From Acidobacteriota bacterium (lineage in GTDB: Bacteria > Acidobacteriota > Vicinamibacteria > Vicinamibacterales > CAVVIG01), in contig QHWJ01000364.1 in NCBI GenBank assembly GCA_003222535.1, forward strand, positions 1 through 55,209: a DNA stretch of 55,209 nucleotides, given 5' to 3'. The notes beneath the pieces were generated by a model that made no database searches, was not told where the DNA came from, and was given only the letters and a program-made list of their open reading frames with translations. Shown here one piece after another: positions 286 through 34,661 of the stretch. A program made the position numbers and the translations under genes. Position 1 is the stretch's first letter; each line of letters opens with the position of its first letter.

Positions 286-2196
286 TTGCGGATTCTCGAG
301 ACCCAGCCCATCCGGCGCCAGATCGTCGCGATCACGTGCGCCCTGCTCGTGCCGTTCGCGATCGCGGCGGCGTGGGCGTCGGGCCGCACGCGCAGTGAGC
401 GCGCGTCCGAAGTGCGCGAGCAGGCCGGTTCGGTCGCCGTGACCACCGGGGCCCATTTCAATCAGTACCTGACCGGCCTCGATTCGATGGCGTCTGCACT
501 CGTACGCCATCCCGCCGTGATGGGGCTCGATGGAGTCCAGACCGATCGGCTGTTCGCCGAAGTGCTTCGCGGGCAACCGCTAATCCTCAACATCGTGCTG
601 ACCGACACCAACGCCGCGCTCAAGGGCACGGCAATGCCTGAGCGCCGCGACATGAGCGCCACGGTGACGGCGCCCTACGTCGGCGAGGTGGCCGCATCGG
701 GGAAGCCGCTGGTCAGCGAGCTGTTGACGGGAGCTGTCACCGGAAAGCCGACCGTGGTGCTCGCGTATCCCGTGCGCAACGCGCAGGACGCGGTGGTCGG
801 CGTCCTCGCGCTGGGTCTCAACCTGGCGCGCCTGCAAACGCTCTTCAGTGGCATCCCGCTGCCGGATGGCTCCGTTGTGACGTTGACCGATGCAAAGGGA
901 CGCGTGCTCGCGCGCAGCCGGGACGCGGAGCGGTATATCGGCAGGCTGACGGATCCGCGGGCCACCATGGCCCCCGGCGATGTGCCGCGCACACGGGTGC
1001 TGACCGGAGTCGATGGCATCGAGCGCTTCTGGGGCACTGCCGTTGTCGAACGCGGCCCATGGCTGCTGAGCGTCGGCATCCCGACCAGCGTGGCTGCCGC
1101 GCGCGCTGCGCCGCTGTACCGGAGAAACGTCGCGATTGCCTTGACGGCGATCGGGGCCGTCCTGCTGCTCGCGCTGGCGTTGTCGGCGCTGATGACCCGA
1201 AGCGTGAATGGCGTTCGTGAGGCTGTCCGGCGAATCGCCGACGGCGATTTGTCGCCTCCCGTCAGAAGCCCCGTGTCGAATCGCGAGCTCGCGGGGCTGC
1301 AGGACGCGTTCATCAAGATGGCCGCGAATCTCCGCGAGACGCACCAGGCGCTGGATCGCCAGGTCGAGCAGGAGCGGAAGATGCGCGAGGTGCTGCAGTC
1401 GCTGCAGCGCCAGGTCGTCCGTCAGGAGCGCCTGGCCGCGGTCGGCGTGCTCGTCTCGGGCGTCGCGCACGAGCTGAACAATCCGCTCCAGGCCATTCTC
1501 GGGACGGCGGAGTTGCTCGAGCGACACCGCGCGCTCTCGCCGGAAGCGATCGAAGAGGTCGGGTTCATCAAAACGCAGGGCGGCCGCGCCCGCGAGATCA
1601 TCCGCAACCTCTCACGCTTCAGCAGTCAGCAGTCGGGGCCGGCCGCGGTCGTCGACTTGCGCGACGTCATCGCGGAGGTCGTGCAGCTCCGCCGCCGCGA
1701 TCTCGACGCCTCGTCAGTCGTCCTGGACGTCGAGCTGTCCACCACGCGGAAGGTGTACGCCAACTTCACCGAGGTCGAGCAGGTCACGCTCAACTTCGTG
1801 ATCAACGCGCAGCAGTCCATCGAGGCCGCGGCGCGACCGAAAGGCCGCATCCTCATTCGCGTCTACGACGCGGGGAAGAAGGTCCGCCTCGAGGTCCAGG
1901 ACGACGGCGCCGGCGTCGCGCCGGAGGACGAGCCGAAGCTGTTCCAGCCCTTCTTCACGACGAAGCCGGTCGGGCAGGGGACCGGTCTCGGGTTGTCCGT
2001 GAGCTACGGGATCATCGAATCGTACGGCGGCGCGATCGGTTACAGCGGCAACGAATGGGGCGGCGCCACGTTCTTCTTCGAGCTGCCGGTCACCGAACCC
2101 GGAGCGCGGCCGCCCTCCTCGTCTTCCCTGAAGGCATCCCCCAAGTCTGATGACGGACCGCCTCTACTACAACGATCCGTATCTTCAGGAGTTTGA
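286..2196 (+). CDS. membrane sensor histidine kinase (Cache-like, HAMP, HisKA, HATPase)
   Basis: A 636-residue sensor kinase starting at a TTG codon. Residues about 13-31 and 281-303 are membrane segments enclosing an extracytoplasmic sensor region that looks Cache-like. A HAMP linker follows to about residue 356, then a short coiled coil. The H-box VAHELNNPLQAI places the phosphorylated histidine at about residue 395. The N-box (NFVINAQQS, near 503), the DDGAGVAP box (near 540) and the GTGLGLS box (near 565) complete an NtrB/ZraS-like catalytic core. No response regulator is adjacent; the partner is unknown. The 3' end overlaps the next gene by 47 bp. Ligand cannot be inferred. Confidence 0.93.
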   Translation: MRILETQPIRRQIVAITCALLVPFAIAAAWASGRTRSERASEVREQAGSVAVTTGAHFNQYLTGLDSMASALVRHPAVMGLDGVQTDRLFAEVLRGQPLILNIVLTDTNAALKGTAMPERRDMSATVTAPYVGEVAASGKPLVSELLTGAVTGKPTVVLAYPVRNAQDAVVGVLALGLNLARLQTLFSGIPLPDGSVVTLTDAKGRVLARSRDAERYIGRLTDPRATMAPGDVPRTRVLTGVDGIERFWGTAVVERGPWLLSVGIPTSVAAARAAPLYRRNVAIALTAIGAVLLLALALSALMTRSVNGVREAVRRIADGDLSPPVRSPVSNRELAGLQDAFIKMAANLRETHQALDRQVEQERKMREVLQSLQRQVVRQERLAAVGVLVSGVAHELNNPLQAILGTAELLERHRALSPEAIEEVGFIKTQGGRAREIIRNLSRFSSQQSGPAAVVDLRDVIAEVVQLRRRDLDASSVVLDVELSTTRKVYANFTEVEQVTLNFVINAQQSIEAAARPKGRILIRVYDAGKKVRLEVQDDGAGVAPEDEPKLFQPFFTTKPVGQGTGLGLSVSYGIIESYGGAIGYSGNEWGGATFFFELPVTEPGARPPSSSSLKASPKSDDGPPLLQRSVSSGV

Positions 2197-3418
2197 CGCG
2201 ACGATCGAGCGCGTCGAACGTCGCGGCGAGCGACTCGTCGTGACGCTCGATCGCACGGCGTTCTACCCCTCGTCGGGTGGGCAGCCGTTCGACACGGGCA
2301 TCCTTGGATCACTCCGCGTCGTCGAGGTCGCCGACGAAGACGACGGCTCGGTCGCGCACGTGGTCGACCCCGGAACGACGAACGTTGAACTCCGAACCCC
2401 GAACCTTGAACCGCGAACGAACCTTGAACCTGGAACCCTGAACCTGGAACCCGGTCAGAGCGTCCGCGGGGTCATCGACTGGGAACGCCGCTTCGATCAC
2501 ATGCAGCAGCACTCCGGCCAGCACGTGTTGTCGGCCGCTTTCGATCGGCTGTTCGGCATCCGAACCATGAGCTTTCATCTCGGCGCGGCGGTCTCGACGA
2601 TCGATCTCGCGCACGATGTGTCGCCCGCCGACATCGCGGCCGCGGAGGCCGAGGCCAACCGCATCGTCTGGGAGGACCGCCCCGTGGCGATCCGCTTCGC
2701 GACCGCGGAGGAGGCGGCGAGGCTGCCGCTGAGGAAGGAGCCCGTGCGCGGAGGAACCCTGCGCCTGATTGACGTGGAGGGCTTCGATCTCTCCGCATGC
2801 GGCGGCACGCACGTGGCGCGCACCGGGGGCATCGGGATCATCGCGATCGCCTCGTGGGAGCGGTTCAAAGGCGGACAGCGGATCGAATTCCTGTGCGGCG
2901 GTCGCGCGCTGAGCGCGTTTCGATCGCTGCGCGATGCCGTGAGCAGCAGCGTCCGGCTGCTGTCGGTGCTGCCCGCGGAGCTGCCGGCGTCGATCGAGAG
3001 GCTGCAGGCGGAGGCGAAAGATCAGAAGCGTTCCCTCGCGGCACTGCAGGTCGAGCTCGCACGGTACCGCGCGGAGGAGCTCGCCGGGGGTGCGGAACAG
3101 GTCTGGCTGAAGCCGGACGCTACCGGGGTGTGCCGCCTTGTTGCTCGCGCAATCGATGCGGATGCGAACGGTCTGAAAGCGCTGGCAACCGCCATCACCT
3201 CCAAACCGGGCCATCTCGTCGTCTTCGTCTCCTCATCCACCCCGGCGCTGGCGGTCGTCGCGCGTTCCGCGGATGTCAGCGTGCAGGCGCAGCAGGTGCT
3301 GGCCGCGCTCATCAAACAGTTCGGCGGACGCGGCGGCGGCAAGCCGGAATTCGCTCAAGGTGGCGGGCTCTCAGCCTCGCCGGACGCGATCCTGAAGGCC
3401 GCGCGCGCCGCGATCTGA
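2150..3418 (+). CDS. AlaX-type alanyl-tRNA editing protein with DHHA1 domain
   Basis: A 422-residue free-standing editing protein that should hydrolyse mischarged Ser- or Gly-tRNA(Ala). The N-terminal region contains the TAFYPSSGGQPFDTG motif of the AlaRS second additional domain. The zinc site is seen as HMQQH (His117, His121) and CGGTH (Cys217, His221). The C-terminal part ends in a DHHA1-like GGRGGGKPEFAQGGG segment near residue 392, making this the long AlaX-L form. Residues about 75-102 are low complexity and encoded by a degenerate heptanucleotide array, and residues about 321-326 (LKPDAT) match a dispersed palindrome. Both are inserted in frame. The ATG lies inside the end of the kinase gene, which suggests co-expression. 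Confidence 0.9.
   Translation: MTDRLYYNDPYLQEFDATIERVERRGERLVVTLDRTAFYPSSGGQPFDTGILGSLRVVEVADEDDGSVAHVVDPGTTNVELRTPNLEPRTNLEPGTLNLEPGQSVRGVIDWERRFDHMQQHSGQHVLSAAFDRLFGIRTMSFHLGAAVSTIDLAHDVSPADIAAAEAEANRIVWEDRPVAIRFATAEEAARLPLRKEPVRGGTLRLIDVEGFDLSACGGTHVARTGGIGIIAIASWERFKGGQRIEFLCGGRALSAFRSLRDAVSSSVRLLSVLPAELPASIERLQAEAKDQKRSLAALQVELARYRAEELAGGAEQVWLKPDATGVCRLVARAIDADANGLKALATAITSKPGHLVVFVSSSTPALAVVARSADVSVQAQQVLAALIKQFGGRGGGKPEFAQGGGLSASPDAILKAARAAI
2371..2454 (+). repeat. in-frame heptanucleotide array (GAACCTG family) inside alaX
   Basis: About twelve degenerate copies of a 7-nt unit (GAACCTT, GAACCTG, GAACCCT). It is translated in frame as a Leu-Glu-Pro/Asn-rich stretch between the first beta-rich region and the HMQQH zinc motif. 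No stop occurs in the frame used. Confidence 0.8.
3098..3128 (+). repeat. REP-like LKPDAT element inside alaX
   Basis: Contains GGCTGAAGCCGGACGCTACC, translated as LKPDAT. The same core recurs twice inside dacB, after the DUF4340 gene at 5797-5814 and, degenerate, at 29939 and 45980. The complete form is the palindrome GTCCGGCTGAAGCCGGAC. Confidence 0.6.
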
Positions 3419-3828: not shown

Positions 3829-5409
3829 TCAGCGCCTGAATTCGGCGAGCCGGACCACGATGGCGTCAACGGTTCTGGTGATCGTCTCCGGGGCCGTCTC
3901 GAAGTTGTTCGCGAGGATGGAAAACACGACCGGCTCGCCCCCGGCCGTCGTCACGTAGCCCGACAGCCCGCGCACGTTGGACATCGAGCCGGTCTTCGCG
4001 CGCGCGTTGCCTTCCGCCGGCGTCCCTTTCATGCGATTCGACAGCGTGCCGTCGCGGCCGGCGATCGGCAGCGATGCCTCGAACGGTCCGCGCAGCCGAT
4101 CGTCGCGATCGACGTGCGTGAGAATCGTGACGAGCGCTTCGGGCGTGATGAGGTTGTAGCGCGAGAGCCCGGAGCCGTCGGCTATGATCAGGTCCGACGC
4201 CGCCACGCCCCAGCCCTCGACGAGCGAGCGCGCGTCAGCCAGGCCGGCGGCGAAGGTCGGCGTGCCTCGGGTCAGCCCGAGCGTCTTCACCATCGTTTCC
4301 GCGTCGAAGTTCAGGCTGATCTTCATCAATGTCGTCGCGATGTTCGAGAGCGGCGGCGATCGATACGCGATGACCGGAACAGCGGTTTCCCGCGACGGCT
4401 CGGGAGTCACCTCGTCGATATCCACCGCCGGTCCGCGGACGTCGATGCCGTGCGCGATGAGCGCGGCGCGCAGCGCGTTGACGAAGAAGAGCGTCGGGTT
4501 GTCGACCGACACGGTATGCACTGCCGGCGCGCTGCCGAGCGGAATCGAGCCGCGGAGCTCCAGGCGGCTGCTGCCGGGAAACCGATGCGCGACCACGAGA
4601 GCCGGAGTGTTGGCGGCGGCCGTTTTCAGCGAGCTCCTGATGACGAGACCGCTGCCATCGGGCGCGACGGCGATGCTGGCGGGATCGCCGGGGGCCGCGC
4701 CGGGCCCAATCGTCAGGCGCACCTGGCTCTCGTTGAACTGCAGCGCGCTGACTCCCGCGGCGTAACCGTCAGGCAGGTCGTCCCACGACCAGCCGAACCC
4801 CAGGCCGTCGTCATCGAACGCATTGTCGTCGCCGATGATGCGGCCGTCGATCGTCCGTACGCCTTTCGATTTCAGCCGCTCGGCCCACTCGGCGAAGACA
4901 CGCTCGGCCATGCCGTCGGCGACGACGAGGCTCGGGTCGCCACTGCCGACGACCACCAGATCGCCGTGCAGGACGCCGGACTCGATCGGACCTGCGGCGA
5001 ACACCTTCGTTTCGTACGTGTAGTCCCACCCCAGACGCTCGGCGGTGGCCGCGAGCGTCACGATTTTCATGTTCGACGCGGGCATCATCAGCTTGCGGGC
5101 GTTCACCGCATAGAGTGTCTCGCCGGTCTTGAGCGACCTGACCAGCACGCCCCAGTACCCATGCGCCAGCTGCGGCTCCGCGAGGATCGCGTCGATATCG
5201 CGCCGGAGCCTGTCCGTCGCGGCGTCCGGCTTCACCCGGACGTCAGCGGTCGTGACTTCAGCGGTCGTGGCGTCCGGCTTGAGCCGGACTTCGGCGGCGG
5301 GAGAACCTGGAGGGGCTGGAAGCGCGGGAGGCTTCGTCGTCGCGCACGCGGCGACGGTCAGCGCGACGACGACCGTGGCGCAGGCCTTCAGGCCTGTCCG
5401 CCGCGTCAC
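3829..5409 (-). CDS. dacB: D-alanyl-D-alanine carboxypeptidase/endopeptidase, PBP4 (DacB) type lipoprotein
   Basis: A peptidase S13 family enzyme of about 526 residues that trims or cleaves peptidoglycan cross-links in the periplasm. The nucleophile motif SNMK is at about residues 112-115, the DGSGLSRYN region near 411-419 and the KTG triad at about 472-474. I chose the GTG at 5407-5409: it begins a signal peptide ending in a VAAC lipobox, so the mature protein is probably a lipoprotein. The open frame continues upstream but there overprints a decayed kinase gene whose TGA overlaps this GTG. The signal peptide and the following linker include dispersed-repeat peptides (GLKACAT; two LKPDA-type copies). 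Confidence 0.92.
   Translation of the reverse strand: MTRRTGLKACATVVVALTVAACATTKPPALPAPPGSPAAEVRLKPDATTAEVTTADVRVKPDAATDRLRRDIDAILAEPQLAHGYWGVLVRSLKTGETLYAVNARKLMMPASNMKIVTLAATAERLGWDYTYETKVFAAGPIESGVLHGDLVVVGSGDPSLVVADGMAERVFAEWAERLKSKGVRTIDGRIIGDDNAFDDDGLGFGWSWDDLPDGYAAGVSALQFNESQVRLTIGPGAAPGDPASIAVAPDGSGLVIRSSLKTAAANTPALVVAHRFPGSSRLELRGSIPLGSAPAVHTVSVDNPTLFFVNALRAALIAHGIDVRGPAVDIDEVTPEPSRETAVPVIAYRSPPLSNIATTLMKISLNFDAETMVKTLGLTRGTPTFAAGLADARSLVEGWGVAASDLIIADGSGLSRYNLITPEALVTILTHVDRDDRLRGPFEASLPIAGRDGTLSNRMKGTPAEGNARAKTGSMSNVRGLSGYVTTAGGEPVVFSILANNFETAPETITRTVDAIVVRLAEFRR
5214..5297 (-). repeat. two tandem LKPDAT elements inside dacB linker
   Basis: Two direct copies on the minus strand, each reading (G)TCCGGcTcAAGCCGGACGCC or close to it, translated as VRLKPDAT and VRVKPDAA. 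They form the linker between the lipobox cysteine and the peptidase domain, a position that should tolerate insertions. Confidence 0.65.
5381..5396. repeat. REP-like palindrome CAGGCCTTCAGGCCTG in the dacB signal peptide
   Basis: A perfect 7-bp inverted repeat around a 2-base loop. On the minus strand it is read as GLKAC within the DacB signal peptide, only about five codons after the start codon, where a hairpin could affect translation. Confidence 0.5.
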
Positions 5410-8752: not shown

Positions 8753-8819
<67 letters not shown>

Positions 8820-8833
8820 AGCGTTGTTCTTGG

Positions 8834-13811: not shown

Positions 13812-14660
13812 TCACGTTCCCTCTACTGGCAACAACCCGAGCAGCTCGTACGCCCGGCGTTGGATGGGTGTCGGCGCCGGGATCTGTTTGAACGTCAGTT
13901 TCGATTCGTCGGATTTCAACCGATAGGTGTTCCGCGCGCGACTCGCCAACTCCGCGATGAGACTCTCAAAGCTGTGCACCGGGAGACCATCGGGTGTCGT
14001 ATGCGTGGCCTTCTTCGCCTTCGCCGATGCGGTGGGTTGCGGGGCGAAGGCGCGACGCATGTGCCACTCGACATAGCAGGCGAGCACGCAGAGGAAGATG
14101 TGCGCGGGCACGCGGGCCTCGGTGCGGTGGCGAATCGGCCGCACCAAGACATCGATCCCTTTCAGGCACCGGAACGCCCGTTCCACTTGCGACAGGCTCT
14201 TATACGTGCGCACGGCGTCGGCGGCTGAGAACCGCGCGGCCGGCTCGCTCGTCCGAATCACATAGATGCCATCCAACTTTGCTTCCGCCGCGATCGCCTC
14301 TTCGCGACGGATCCACTGAAAGGTACCCTCGCCGATCGTCAGCTGATAGTGCTTGCCGACTTTGTGGCGCTCCAGAATTTTGCCTGCCTTCAGGCCGATC
14401 GCGGATGCGGCGAATGGTTTCTTCGTGCGGCGCGCGACGTCCCGCGCGAGTTTCGTCAAACCCTGCTCGGTGGCGTCGAGCAACGCTGGTCGTGTGCCAC
14501 AGGCGCGTGGTGGCTAATCTCGAACAGGGATGCAGTAACCGCTCGGCGATCATCGCGACGACCAGATCGCGCTGACGACACCGTTTGGCGGCGATCACGG
14601 TGTCCAATCCTTGCCGATCATCGAATCGCCGAAGTTGTGGCGGGGCAATACGTTCAAGTA
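13812..14660 (-). pseudogene. IS1634-like transposase remnant with internal deletion
   Basis: Two pieces of one transposase in different frames. The 5' piece (about 14660-14500) encodes MIAERLLHPCSRLATTRLWH, matching the N-terminal part of IS1634-group DDE transposases. The 3' piece (14483-13812) encodes the C-terminal part with LDGIYVIRTSEPAARFSAAD, YKSLSQVERAFRCLKGIDVL and HIFLCVLACYVEWHMRRA. The central region with most catalytic acidic residues is gone and the join is out of frame. No terminal inverted repeats were recognised. It sits between a metal-resistance operon and a convergent operon. Confidence 0.8.
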
Positions 14661-18078: not shown

Positions 18079-20435
18079 GCCCGGAAGACCCGGAAGACAT
18101 CGAACGCAAAGACCGCAAAGCGCACATGGTTCGACAAGCTCACCATGAGCGCCCGCTCGTCGTGAGCCTGTCGAAGGACGCGGGCTCTGCGTTCCCCGTC
18201 GGACTCGCCGTCGTCTTTCTCATCCTCCATCTTCCTTATCTTCCCGCGTCACTCGAAGATCTCGACTCGATCAACTTCGCGCTCGGCATCCGTCATTTCG
18301 ACGTCGCCCATCATCAGCCGCACCCGCCGGGCTATCCGGTCTTCATGCTGATCGCGAAAGCGATGCAGAAGGCGGTTTCGTCCGAAGCGACCGCCCTGGG
18401 TCTGGTGAGCATCGTGGCGGGAACGCTCGGTGTCCTCGCGATGGCGGCGCTGTACCGCCGGCTGAATGGACCCGGACCGAACGCCTCTTCGCTTGCGGCT
18501 GTCGGCGTGGCGATGACCTCGCCGCTGTACTGGTTCACCGCGGTCCGGCCGCTCAGCGACGTCAGCGGTCTGGCGGCCGCGCTCGCCGTGCAGGCGATGA
18601 CGCTCGGCGCCACGAGCACGCGCGCGCTGGCGGTGGCGAGCTTCTCGGCGGGCGTCGCCGCCGGGCTGCGATCGCAGGTCGTGTGGCTGACGATGCCTCT
18701 GCTGATTGCGAGGGGACTGGGGACTAGGGGACTGGGGACCAGGGGCCAGCCCTCAGCCCTCAGTCCCCAGCCCTCAGCCCTCAGTCCCCAGTCCCCAGCC
18801 TCCAGTCCCCAGTCTCTGGTCCTCGTCCTGGCCGCGTTCGTGGCCGGCGTCCTCCTCTGGTTCGTGCCCCTGCTCGTCGTCAGCGGCGGGCCGCTTGCGT
18901 ACTGGCGCGCACTCTTCAACCAGGGCGCGGAGGATCTCGGCAACATCCAGATGCTCTGGACGGCGCACGGCGCGCGCGACCTCGCCGACGCGCTGTACTT
19001 CGCGTTCGTCGCGCCATGGGCCGCGTGGCCGGTGGCGTCGGTGGTTCTGGTCTCGGCGGCGGTCGGCGCTCGGTGGTCGTATCGCCATGCACGCCACGCG
19101 CTATTCGCGATCGCCGCGGGATTTGGTCCGTACCTTGTCTTCGATCTGCTGTTTCAGGAGGCATTCACCAGCCGCTACGCGCTGCCGCTCGTGATCCCGG
19201 TGGCGTATCTGGCCGTTGCCGGGACGCGCGTTCTGCCGCGCCAATCGGGGCTGGTGCTCGGAGTGGGGTTGGCAATGTTCGACGCCCACGTCGGCGGGAC
19301 GTCGATCGCCGCTTACGCACGCCTGAAGGCGCCGGCCTTCCGTTTGCTCGACGACATGCGGAGCGCCGCTCGAGCCACGCGTGAGCCTCCCGTGCTGGCG
19401 ATGGACCGGCGCGAGGACTTCGATTTTCGCCGGCCGATCGCGTGGGTCGGCGACGCGCGGCCGCCGGTCGAACGAAAACTGCCCGCCCCGCCGCAGCACG
19501 AGTGGCTGGAGCCGGTGAAGTACTGGGCCGGCGGCGGTCGCGCGCCCGTCTGGTTCGTCGTCGATCCGATGAGGACGACCATCGATCTTGTCCAGCATGA
19601 AGAGCCGGTCCGCTATCGATGGCCGCTGCCGTACCCGGTCCTCGTCGGCGGCGCCCGCCCGAACGAGATGGACTGGTACCGGGTGGATCGGCCGGAGTGG
19701 TTTGTCGGTGAAGGGTGGTCGTTGACGCCCGAGGCGGCGGGCGTCGCGGAGGGCGATCGTCGCGATCTGTCGCACGGACCTGTTGACGCCTGGATCCACC
19801 GCGATGTGCTCGGCACCGGACACGGAAGCGGCGTGCTGATGATTGGTGGTCGCAGCTTCGATCCGGCGCTCCAGCCACGGTTGTCGGTGGACATCGCGGG
19901 CCGGGCGGTTCTGGACGAGACACTCAGGCCGGGATCGTTCCTGCGCTTTGCGCGTCTGCCGCTCGACGTCGCCACTGTGGATTATCCCAGAGTGACCGTC
20001 AGAACCACGCCGGGTGCACGCGTGGCGATCGAACAGTTCGACGCATCGGCCACGCGCACCGTCTTCGGATTCGGGGAGGGGTGGCACGAACAGGAATTCA
20101 ACCCGCGTACCGGGCTTCGCTGGCGCTGGCTGAGCGAGCGCGGTGACCTGCAGCTTCGCGCGAGCGCTCCGCGTGTGTCGCTGCACGTCGAAGGTGAATC
20201 ACCGCGCAAGTACTTCTCCCGGGGATCACGCTTCGTCATCCGATCGAGCGGCCGGATTGTCTTCGATCGGGTGCTGACCGACGACTTTTCGCTCGACGTC
20301 CCGATCCGAGACCCCGGCGAGACGATCGTGCTCGAGACCGATCAAGTATACGTGCCGGCGGAGCGCAGCCGACGGACCGAGGATCGCCGGCATCTCGGGC
20401 TGCGGATCTTCAAGTGCGAGATCCGGCGACCCTGA
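18075..20435 (+). CDS. GT-C type membrane glycosyltransferase-like protein
   Basis: About 786 residues from the GTG overlapping the larE stop; an ATG at 18126 is an alternative. The N-terminal half has many membrane spans with the loop motif FDVAHHQPHPPGYPVFM, typical of DUF2723/PMT-like glycosyltransferases. The C-terminal half is soluble and beta-rich, and its function is not recognised. Two dispersed repeats are inserted in frame. A palindrome (18129-18177) is translated MVRQAHHERPLVVSLSKD before the first membrane span. A GGGACTG/CCCAGTC array encodes about residues 212-246 in a loop between two membrane helices. The stop codon lies inside a third palindrome. Confidence 0.75.
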   Translation: MSPEDPEDIERKDRKAHMVRQAHHERPLVVSLSKDAGSAFPVGLAVVFLILHLPYLPASLEDLDSINFALGIRHFDVAHHQPHPPGYPVFMLIAKAMQKAVSSEATALGLVSIVAGTLGVLAMAALYRRLNGPGPNASSLAAVGVAMTSPLYWFTAVRPLSDVSGLAAALAVQAMTLGATSTRALAVASFSAGVAAGLRSQVVWLTMPLLIARGLGTRGLGTRGQPSALSPQPSALSPQSPASSPQSLVLVLAAFVAGVLLWFVPLLVVSGGPLAYWRALFNQGAEDLGNIQMLWTAHGARDLADALYFAFVAPWAAWPVASVVLVSAAVGARWSYRHARHALFAIAAGFGPYLVFDLLFQEAFTSRYALPLVIPVAYLAVAGTRVLPRQSGLVLGVGLAMFDAHVGGTSIAAYARLKAPAFRLLDDMRSAARATREPPVLAMDRREDFDFRRPIAWVGDARPPVERKLPAPPQHEWLEPVKYWAGGGRAPVWFVVDPMRTTIDLVQHEEPVRYRWPLPYPVLVGGARPNEMDWYRVDRPEWFVGEGWSLTPEAAGVAEGDRRDLSHGPVDAWIHRDVLGTGHGSGVLMIGGRSFDPALQPRLSVDIAGRAVLDETLRPGSFLRFARLPLDVATVDYPRVTVRTTPGARVAIEQFDASATRTVFGFGEGWHEQEFNPRTGLRWRWLSERGDLQLRASAPRVSLHVEGESPRKYFSRGSRFVIRSSGRIVFDRVLTDDFSLDVPIRDPGETIVLETDQVYVPAERSRRTEDRRHLGLRIFKCEIRRP
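18129..18177. repeat. SLSKD-type palindromic element inside the GT-C gene
   Basis: GTTCGACAAGCTCAC (18129-18143) is complementary to GTGAGCCTGTCGAAGG (18162-18177) with one mismatch, and the intervening bases also pair partly. Read in frame as VRQAHHERPLVVSLSK. A related half-element, CCTGAGCCTCTCGACAGG on the minus strand, occurs in the penicillin acylase near 40128-40150. Confidence 0.7.
18710..18812. repeat. in-frame GGGACTG/CCCAGTC array inside the GT-C gene
   Basis: Left half 18710-18747 (GGGGACTGGGGACTAGG units) and right half 18748-18812 (CCTCAGTCCCCAG units) are complementary. The translation is GLGTRGLGTRG followed by PSALSPQ repeats, placed between two hydrophobic helices. Same unit family as 11197 and 24214. 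Confidence 0.85.
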
Positions 20436-34530: not shown

Positions 34531-34538
34531 GCAACTTG

Positions 34539-34613
34539 CAACTCTCAACTCTCGACGCTCAACTCTCAGGTCTCCGCTTTGAGCGTTGAGCGTTGAGAGT
34601 TGTCAGTTGAGCG
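34539..34613. repeat. CTCAACT heptad array with complementary halves
   Basis: CAACTCT-type units at 34539-34569 face TTGAGCGTTGAGAG units at 34579-34613. It lies between pyrE and the TonB-receptor gene and could end the pyr transcript. Confidence 0.85.
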
Positions 34614-34661
34614 TTTTACACTCTCGCGGCTCCACTCTTTCGTGCCAAGGAGGATCAAAAC

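Follow-up and report, generated by a model that had tools for sequence, protein, structure and literature searches.

An in-frame heptamer array in a loop of an AlaX-L-like protein from an acidobacterium

An AlaX-type alanyl-tRNA editing gene of an Acidobacteriota bacterium from soil contains, at positions 2371 to 2454 of the forward strand, a degenerate array of heptamers (GAACCYN) that is read in frame into about 28 residues. We consider it likely that this array is an in-frame member of the heptamers dispersed over the genome, sitting in a tolerant loop of an AlaX-L enzyme that is predicted and probably functional. All positions refer to the window, i.e., the whole stretch of 55,209 nucleotides that was analysed, which is contig 95 of a genome of 8.06 Mb (G000; 450 contigs, 95.5% complete).

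The AlaX gene and its heptamer array

The ORF at positions 2150 to 3418 (forward strand) encodes 422 amino acids without an internal stop. Its product scores above the Pfam cut-offs for tRNA_SAD (PF07973; 35.4 bits versus 24) and for the C-terminal domain DHHA1 (PF02272; residues 330–421, positions 3137 to 3412, forward strand) and matches, both by sequence and by fold, PDB 3kew, 3wqy (AlaRS), and 9iuw (AlaX-M); the AlaX/AlaRS editing domains of these three entries and of 2e1b are its relatives in fold and sequence. The motifs HMQQH (residues 117–121, positions 2498 to 2512, forward strand) and CGGTH (residues 217–221, positions 2798 to 2812, forward strand) are intact, as had been read in the initial annotation, and H117, H121, C217, and H221, which we take to be the zinc ligands, are unchanged in all rows of an alignment of 46 sequences. 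As in AlaX-type enzymes, an HxxxH and a CxxxH motif lie in a tRNA_SAD-type editing domain, and the protein has no synthetase (aminoacylation) domain of its own: the profile tRNA-synt_2c gives 28.2 bits, below its cut-off of 30.3, and this with its end only (profile positions 480–532). AlaRS is encoded by a separate gene on contig 9 of the genome, with the motifs HTATH and CGGTH. Since the NCBIfam model for AlaXM (NF040865, spanning residues 2–247 only) gives 157.8 bits and does not reach its cut-off of 300, we describe the protein as AlaX-L-like and do not file it as AlaXM. It is probably a functional AlaX-L trans-editing enzyme, as predicted from its sequence.

The array is recognised by its period-7 identity and by TRF. 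Within its 84 nt there are 12 GAAC cores, and the base seven positions further on is identical at 52 of 77 positions (43 of 70 at lag 14), a value that none of 20,000 shuffles reached (lag-7 identity of the shuffled control: mean 20.8, maximum 37). The initial annotation had spoken of a GAACCTG array in frame; frame and period hold, but strong degeneracy and one broken unit of 4 nt set the array apart from a perfect (GAACCTG)n. It codes for residues of about 75 to 100, and the roughly 28 low-complexity residues that had been noted between two conserved regions are indeed read from it, in a frame that is, as claimed, free of stops; so is the rest of the ORF. The array contains no inverted repeats (0) and lacks the palindromic body with a GTAG or GTGG end by which REPs are recognised; it is not a REP. 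A role as RNA hairpin was considered and rejected (fold z = −0.31).

In simulated arrays of 12 units with the linker bases of this genome a given frame is open in 2.2% of the cases, and in the other arrays with at least four units 18 of 63 frames are open. The base before GAAC in the AlaX array of the window is T at none of the four places where T would make TGA versus four of the eight other places; in the other arrays of the genome T precedes GAAC in 101 of 167 cases. The AlaX arrays of two related genomes (G020 and G009) have no T at any of the 13 positions before GAAC, and the avoidance there is therefore not phase-specific. Phase-specific avoidance of T at stop positions is found in the window genome only.

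The AlphaFold2 model of the window protein, built from 46 sequences, has a mean pLDDT of 92.9; the blocks of residues 71–100 have means of 48–67 and every other block at least 76. The loop with the array is placed between the strands 68–74 and 104–109, so that in the model the array-encoded residues form a low-confidence loop of an otherwise confidently predicted protein. In the alignment to 3wqy, which covers residues 2–405, 22 residues of this loop have no counterpart. The insert had been assigned to the AlaX editing domain; it is an in-frame AlaX insert, but it lies in a loop between two strands ahead of the zinc motifs, outside the catalytic core. The insert in the AlaX of G012, 37 extra residues long, is likewise predicted poorly (blocks 71–110, means 43–70) in a model that is otherwise confident.

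The loop in relatives and its different repeats

Searching 149 relatives yielded 90 AlaX rows (window included), which were compared with database rows from several phyla (best 80 of 558); 15 of these 80 share the first 200 residues from GGQ with relatives. In the resulting 170-row alignment at least six extra residues are present at the loop in 11 of the 90 rows (window included; 8 to 37 extra residues) and in none of the best 80 of 558 database rows. A conserved extra domain at this place in homologues from distant phyla, which the initial annotation had regarded as incompatible with an insertion, is thus unsupported.

Loop length, counted from GGQ to the residues before IDW, was measured in 78 genomes including that of the window (90 rows less 11 without anchor and one, L022, that was mis-anchored). 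It is 42–45 residues in 63 genomes, 46–47 in three, and at least 48 in 12. Ten of the 12 enlarged loops belong to the family of the window, of which 17 members were measured, and the remaining two are both members of a second family; the loop of G005 (48 residues, five of them extra) is counted among the 12 by length and not among the 11 by alignment. All 12 are read through without a stop, an open frame having been required by the measurement itself. The expectation that all relatives except close ones would show a clean gap is not borne out, the loop being enlarged in 10 of 17 measured family members and holding unrelated repeats in several of them.

In a tree built without the loop (83 rows; six of the 90 were left out beforehand and G003 was dropped) the enlarged loops fall in one family plus one further pair. 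With labels of our own, the kind of insert (multi-state) changes nine times on this tree and the state enlarged versus not enlarged three times. The arrays of the window and of G020, which belongs to another genus, align with one gap of exactly 21 nt, i.e., three heptamers, and have the broken unit in common. One palindrome insert is common to G016 and G024, and GCACC heptamers are common to G016 and G026; some inserts are therefore probably older than the species.

It should be noted that some copies of the gene in the family may not be intact, since two look locally frameshifted. In the AlaX of G007 (L023) the usual N-terminal sequence is lost from the editing-domain frame, possibly through a frameshift upstream of the loop, and that of G017 (L191) is longer by 28 residues around residue 192, which may be a local frameshift or a further insert.

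The repeats in the AlaX loops differ by direct reading. GAACC heptamers are found in the window genome, G020, and G009, GAACT-like heptamers in G005, GCACC heptamers in G026 and G016, and the nonamer GAGGACAGG in G037. Palindromes are present as a GGGTCC pair in G016 and G024, as GTGTCAGACAC in G017, and as three further kinds in G002, G012, and G047. Four of these five loop palindromes (G016/G024, G002, G012, and G047) have GTAG at one end, as REPs do, and that of G017 is without it.

When the repeats were counted in 31 whole genomes (backward controls 0 to 3), the palindrome GCGGGTCC (GCGGGTCCNNNNGGACCCGC) gave 224 copies in G016 and 157 in G024, both of which have a copy in AlaX, and in the other 29 genomes 11 in G026 and 0–10 elsewhere. 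The GTGTCAGACAC pair is present in G017 alone among the 31. For GCAGGWCTNNAGWCCTGC there are eight matches in G012, two of them in AlaX, versus 154 in G010, and for GGGCCGACCNNGGTCGGCCC three in G002, one of them in AlaX, versus 19 in G016. The GMACC heptamer pattern occurs 71 times in the window genome, 85 times in G020 (64 forward, 21 reverse), and 65–73 times in G016, G024, and G026; G009 has two and G005 five matches (control there 3). From these low counts it follows that G002, G012, G009, and G005 each contain few copies of the repeat that makes up their insert. The clearest cases are G016, G024, G017, and the window, in which the insert is a member of a repeat family resident elsewhere in the genome.

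For the window genome, a pattern of three GAACCYN units has 59 matches versus none in the backward control. With a slightly wider pattern 34 heptamer clusters, in loci covering all 59 matches, were classed by a home-made codon score, which called four of five known AlaX sites coding and missed that of G017 (L191). One cluster, that in AlaX, lies in an open coding frame that is the same before and after it; 33 of the 34 are not inside one coding frame. Judged by this score the 7-nt unit stands at many, mainly non-coding places, which is STRR-like. Three other heptamer arrays of the window, at positions 8753–8828, 18709–18814, and 34537–34617, are inverted pairs and fold into strong hairpins (z = −7.55, −5.08, and −7.58, respectively). 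Further heptamer and nonamer arrays of the window are reported by TRF, and contig 240 of G020 carries a GCACCYC heptamer array of more than 100 bp (14055–14171).

REP palindromes, Y1 genes, and in-frame repeats in other genes

The sole other place of AlaX at which more than one relative is enlarged lies after residue ~315, where 8 of the 90 rows have at least six extra residues. In the window this second in-frame insert (positions 3101 to 3118, forward strand; read VWLKPD(A)) is a REP palindrome that differs at one position from the abundant GTCCGGCTNNAGCCGGAC. This sequence occurs in the window genome in 129 exact copies and, with at most one mismatch allowed, in 187 versus two in the control. 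GTAG or GTGG is carried by 13 of the 16 copies counted (15 sampled loci, two of which overlap); the insert, as is characteristic of REPs, thus belongs to a high-copy palindrome family with a GTAG/GTGG end. At the second site the palindrome is found in the window genome, G005, G024, and G026 (there twice), and in degenerate form in G016; G020 and G014 have extra residues without such a palindrome, and so has G134, with a different GTAGGGCGGG stretch.

The sole match of the window genome to PF01797 (Y1 transposase) is on contig 216 and contains MPDHVHLL. This gene is flanked by two copies of GTCCGGCTNNAGCCGGAC, one exact and the other with two changes, so that the genome with the insert at 3101–3118 also has a RAYT-like gene between two inverted copies of the palindrome. 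The Y1 genes of G016 and G024 are flanked on both sides by GGGTCC palindromes. Because of these flanked Y1 genes, the GTCCGGCTNNAGCCGGAC and GGGTCC families look like REPs with RAYT genes as they are described in PMC2817692 and PMC3733652. PF01797 is present in 21 of the 31 genomes and in 5 of 14 control genomes. From 31 matches listed, 18 Y1 genes were examined, and six of them (in the window genome, G016, G024, G013, and G021, and one of three in G023) have counted palindromes, or a close variant of these, on either side. The remainder of the 18 have other palindromes or none, and next to none of the 18 do the palindromes of G012 or G002 stand. A strict correlation of RAYT genes with repeats is unsupported: G010 has 154 GCAGGWCT palindromes and no PF01797 match.

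In-frame repeats are not confined to AlaX. For example, the palindrome of G016 is in frame outside AlaX at four of 17 classifiable sites of a sample, one of them in biotin carboxylase, where the loop with the palindrome has 28 residues versus none in PDB 3u9s; the biotin carboxylase of G024 has the same palindrome in the same loop. This loop comprises 24–32 residues in 18 of 21 measured family members, 53 in G016, 45 in G024, and 46 in the window genome, whose gene (L250, contig 293) has its enlarged loop at the place of the G016/G024 palindrome. The REP of the window genome is in frame at two of 15 sampled sites, namely in a peptidase S9 gene and, as a candidate, at L290. In the peptidase S9 gene (L282, contig 34) it stands shortly before the catalytic domain. 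In the window itself an exact copy of the REP at positions 5272 to 5289 (reverse strand) is read VRLKPD(A) in an S13 D-Ala-D-Ala carboxypeptidase ORF (3829–5394 and upstream). This copy sits between what reads as a lipoprotein-like signal and the S13 domain (from residue 64 of the translated stretch), and it is read in the same frame sense as the second AlaX insert.

Origin of the inserts and comparison with known systems

The loop, which connects two strands in the N-terminal part of the protein, would tolerate insertions, and repeats active in the lineage would enter it: slippage-prone heptamer arrays on the one hand, and REP palindromes, presumably moved by RAYT transposases, on the other. 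The link to RAYT applies to the palindromes only and not to the heptamers. Inserts that are free of stops and whose length is divisible by three would be kept, and frameshifting insertions would be purged; because the loop would tolerate insertions, active repeats that are in frame and stop-free would be retained there. The inserted peptide probably has little or no function, neutral tolerance being, from the sequences compared, the most likely reading.

Instead of having been brought in, the array may have grown in situ by slippage from native codons of the loop, which we regard as possible but rather doubtful. The short-loop sequence L015 of G038 reads GNLEPGQSVRG, so that NLEPGQ, which stands at the 3′ edge of the array, is already encoded there and the last one or two units of the array may be native codons. 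These heptamer-like codons for NLEPG in the short loop can be aligned with the final units of the array and keep growth in situ alive for heptamers, not for palindromes; LEPG is also present in the short loops L025, L156, L182, and L183. Against growth in situ stand the same heptamers at 33 other clusters of the window genome, and the unrelated palindromes at the same place in relatives cannot arise by slippage of LEPG codons.

It is unlikely that the inserted peptides are a functional appendage under selection, altering, for example, the binding of tRNA or of a partner. That this loop has been enlarged repeatedly while most other AlaX loops have not, and that the array is retained in two genera, would fit such a function, but sequence and length of the insert vary between relatives (8 to 37 extra residues in 11 rows), and the inserts are of low confidence in both models (window and G012). 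Moreover, in two of these genomes the palindrome is also present in a loop of biotin carboxylase, and PMC3733652 discusses in-frame repeats of loops or linkers as possibly neutral.

More far-reaching is the idea that the AlaX loop is a repeat trap in which, in lineages with a heptamer array, length steps of 21 nt would tune, or off steps of 7 or 14 nt would switch, the editing of mischarged tRNAAla. We think this very unlikely; if true, translation fidelity would become evolvable through captured resident repeats. Still less credit is given to a phase-variable switch, in which one or two heptamers put AlaX out of frame and three keep the frame: a 7-nt unit is not a multiple of three and the window and G020 differ by 21 nt, but the units are degenerate (52 of 77 at lag 7), which should slow slippage, and the 12 enlarged loops are all stop-free, a count that required an open frame and possibly missed off-variants. 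A misassembly or a dead gene is highly improbable in spite of the fragmentation of the genome into 450 contigs and the locally frameshifted look of the G007 and G017 copies, since the array with its frame kept is found also in G020, a separate genome, and the window protein has a confident model and all 41 invariant columns of the 46-sequence alignment, of which it is itself the first row.

If in-frame capture of resident repeats by a tolerant loop is correct, these genes are a natural experiment that bears on where proteins tolerate insertion, how "extragenic" repeats turn coding, and whether the loops concerned remain neutral. The findings also suggest that where a protein of these bacteria has a short low-complexity insert, this may be a translated repeat and not a domain. 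According to the title of a paper by Vioque from 1997, STRRs are said to occur inside the RNase P RNA gene.

Dispersed heptamers have been described in Nostoc (the cyanobacterial STRR) and in Xanthomonas, where they are found mainly between genes and are under-represented within them (PMC4692102). The heptamers of the window genome are like these in being dispersed, mainly intergenic 7-nt tandem units; they differ in that they belong to another phylum and consist of other units. Rickettsia palindromic elements of ~150 bp, the classic example, are found in frame in unrelated genes, the protein apparently being kept (PMC10969869), whereas the repeats described here are heptamers or palindromes with bodies of ~18–24 bp.

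Closest are the intragenic REPs with GTAG/CGTC that are read in frame inside conserved genes, those for tRNA synthetases included; dimers or groups of these REPs encode 20–30 residues, the authors mention flexible linkers or loops, and RAYT genes are flanked by REPs (PMC3733652). The repeats described here are likewise dispersed and in frame within conserved genes. However, the array of the window is a tandem heptamer without inverted repeats, and several unrelated repeat families are found in one loop of one gene in different genera. In the literature searched (open-licence papers) we found no translated heptamer array that is in frame and kept between genera, no repeats in the AlaX loop, and no single loop with several unrelated repeats. 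In-frame repeats, mostly palindromes and REPs among them, are already known from bacterial genes; the new parts are a heptamer array that is predicted to be translated and one loop that several unrelated repeats appear to have entered.
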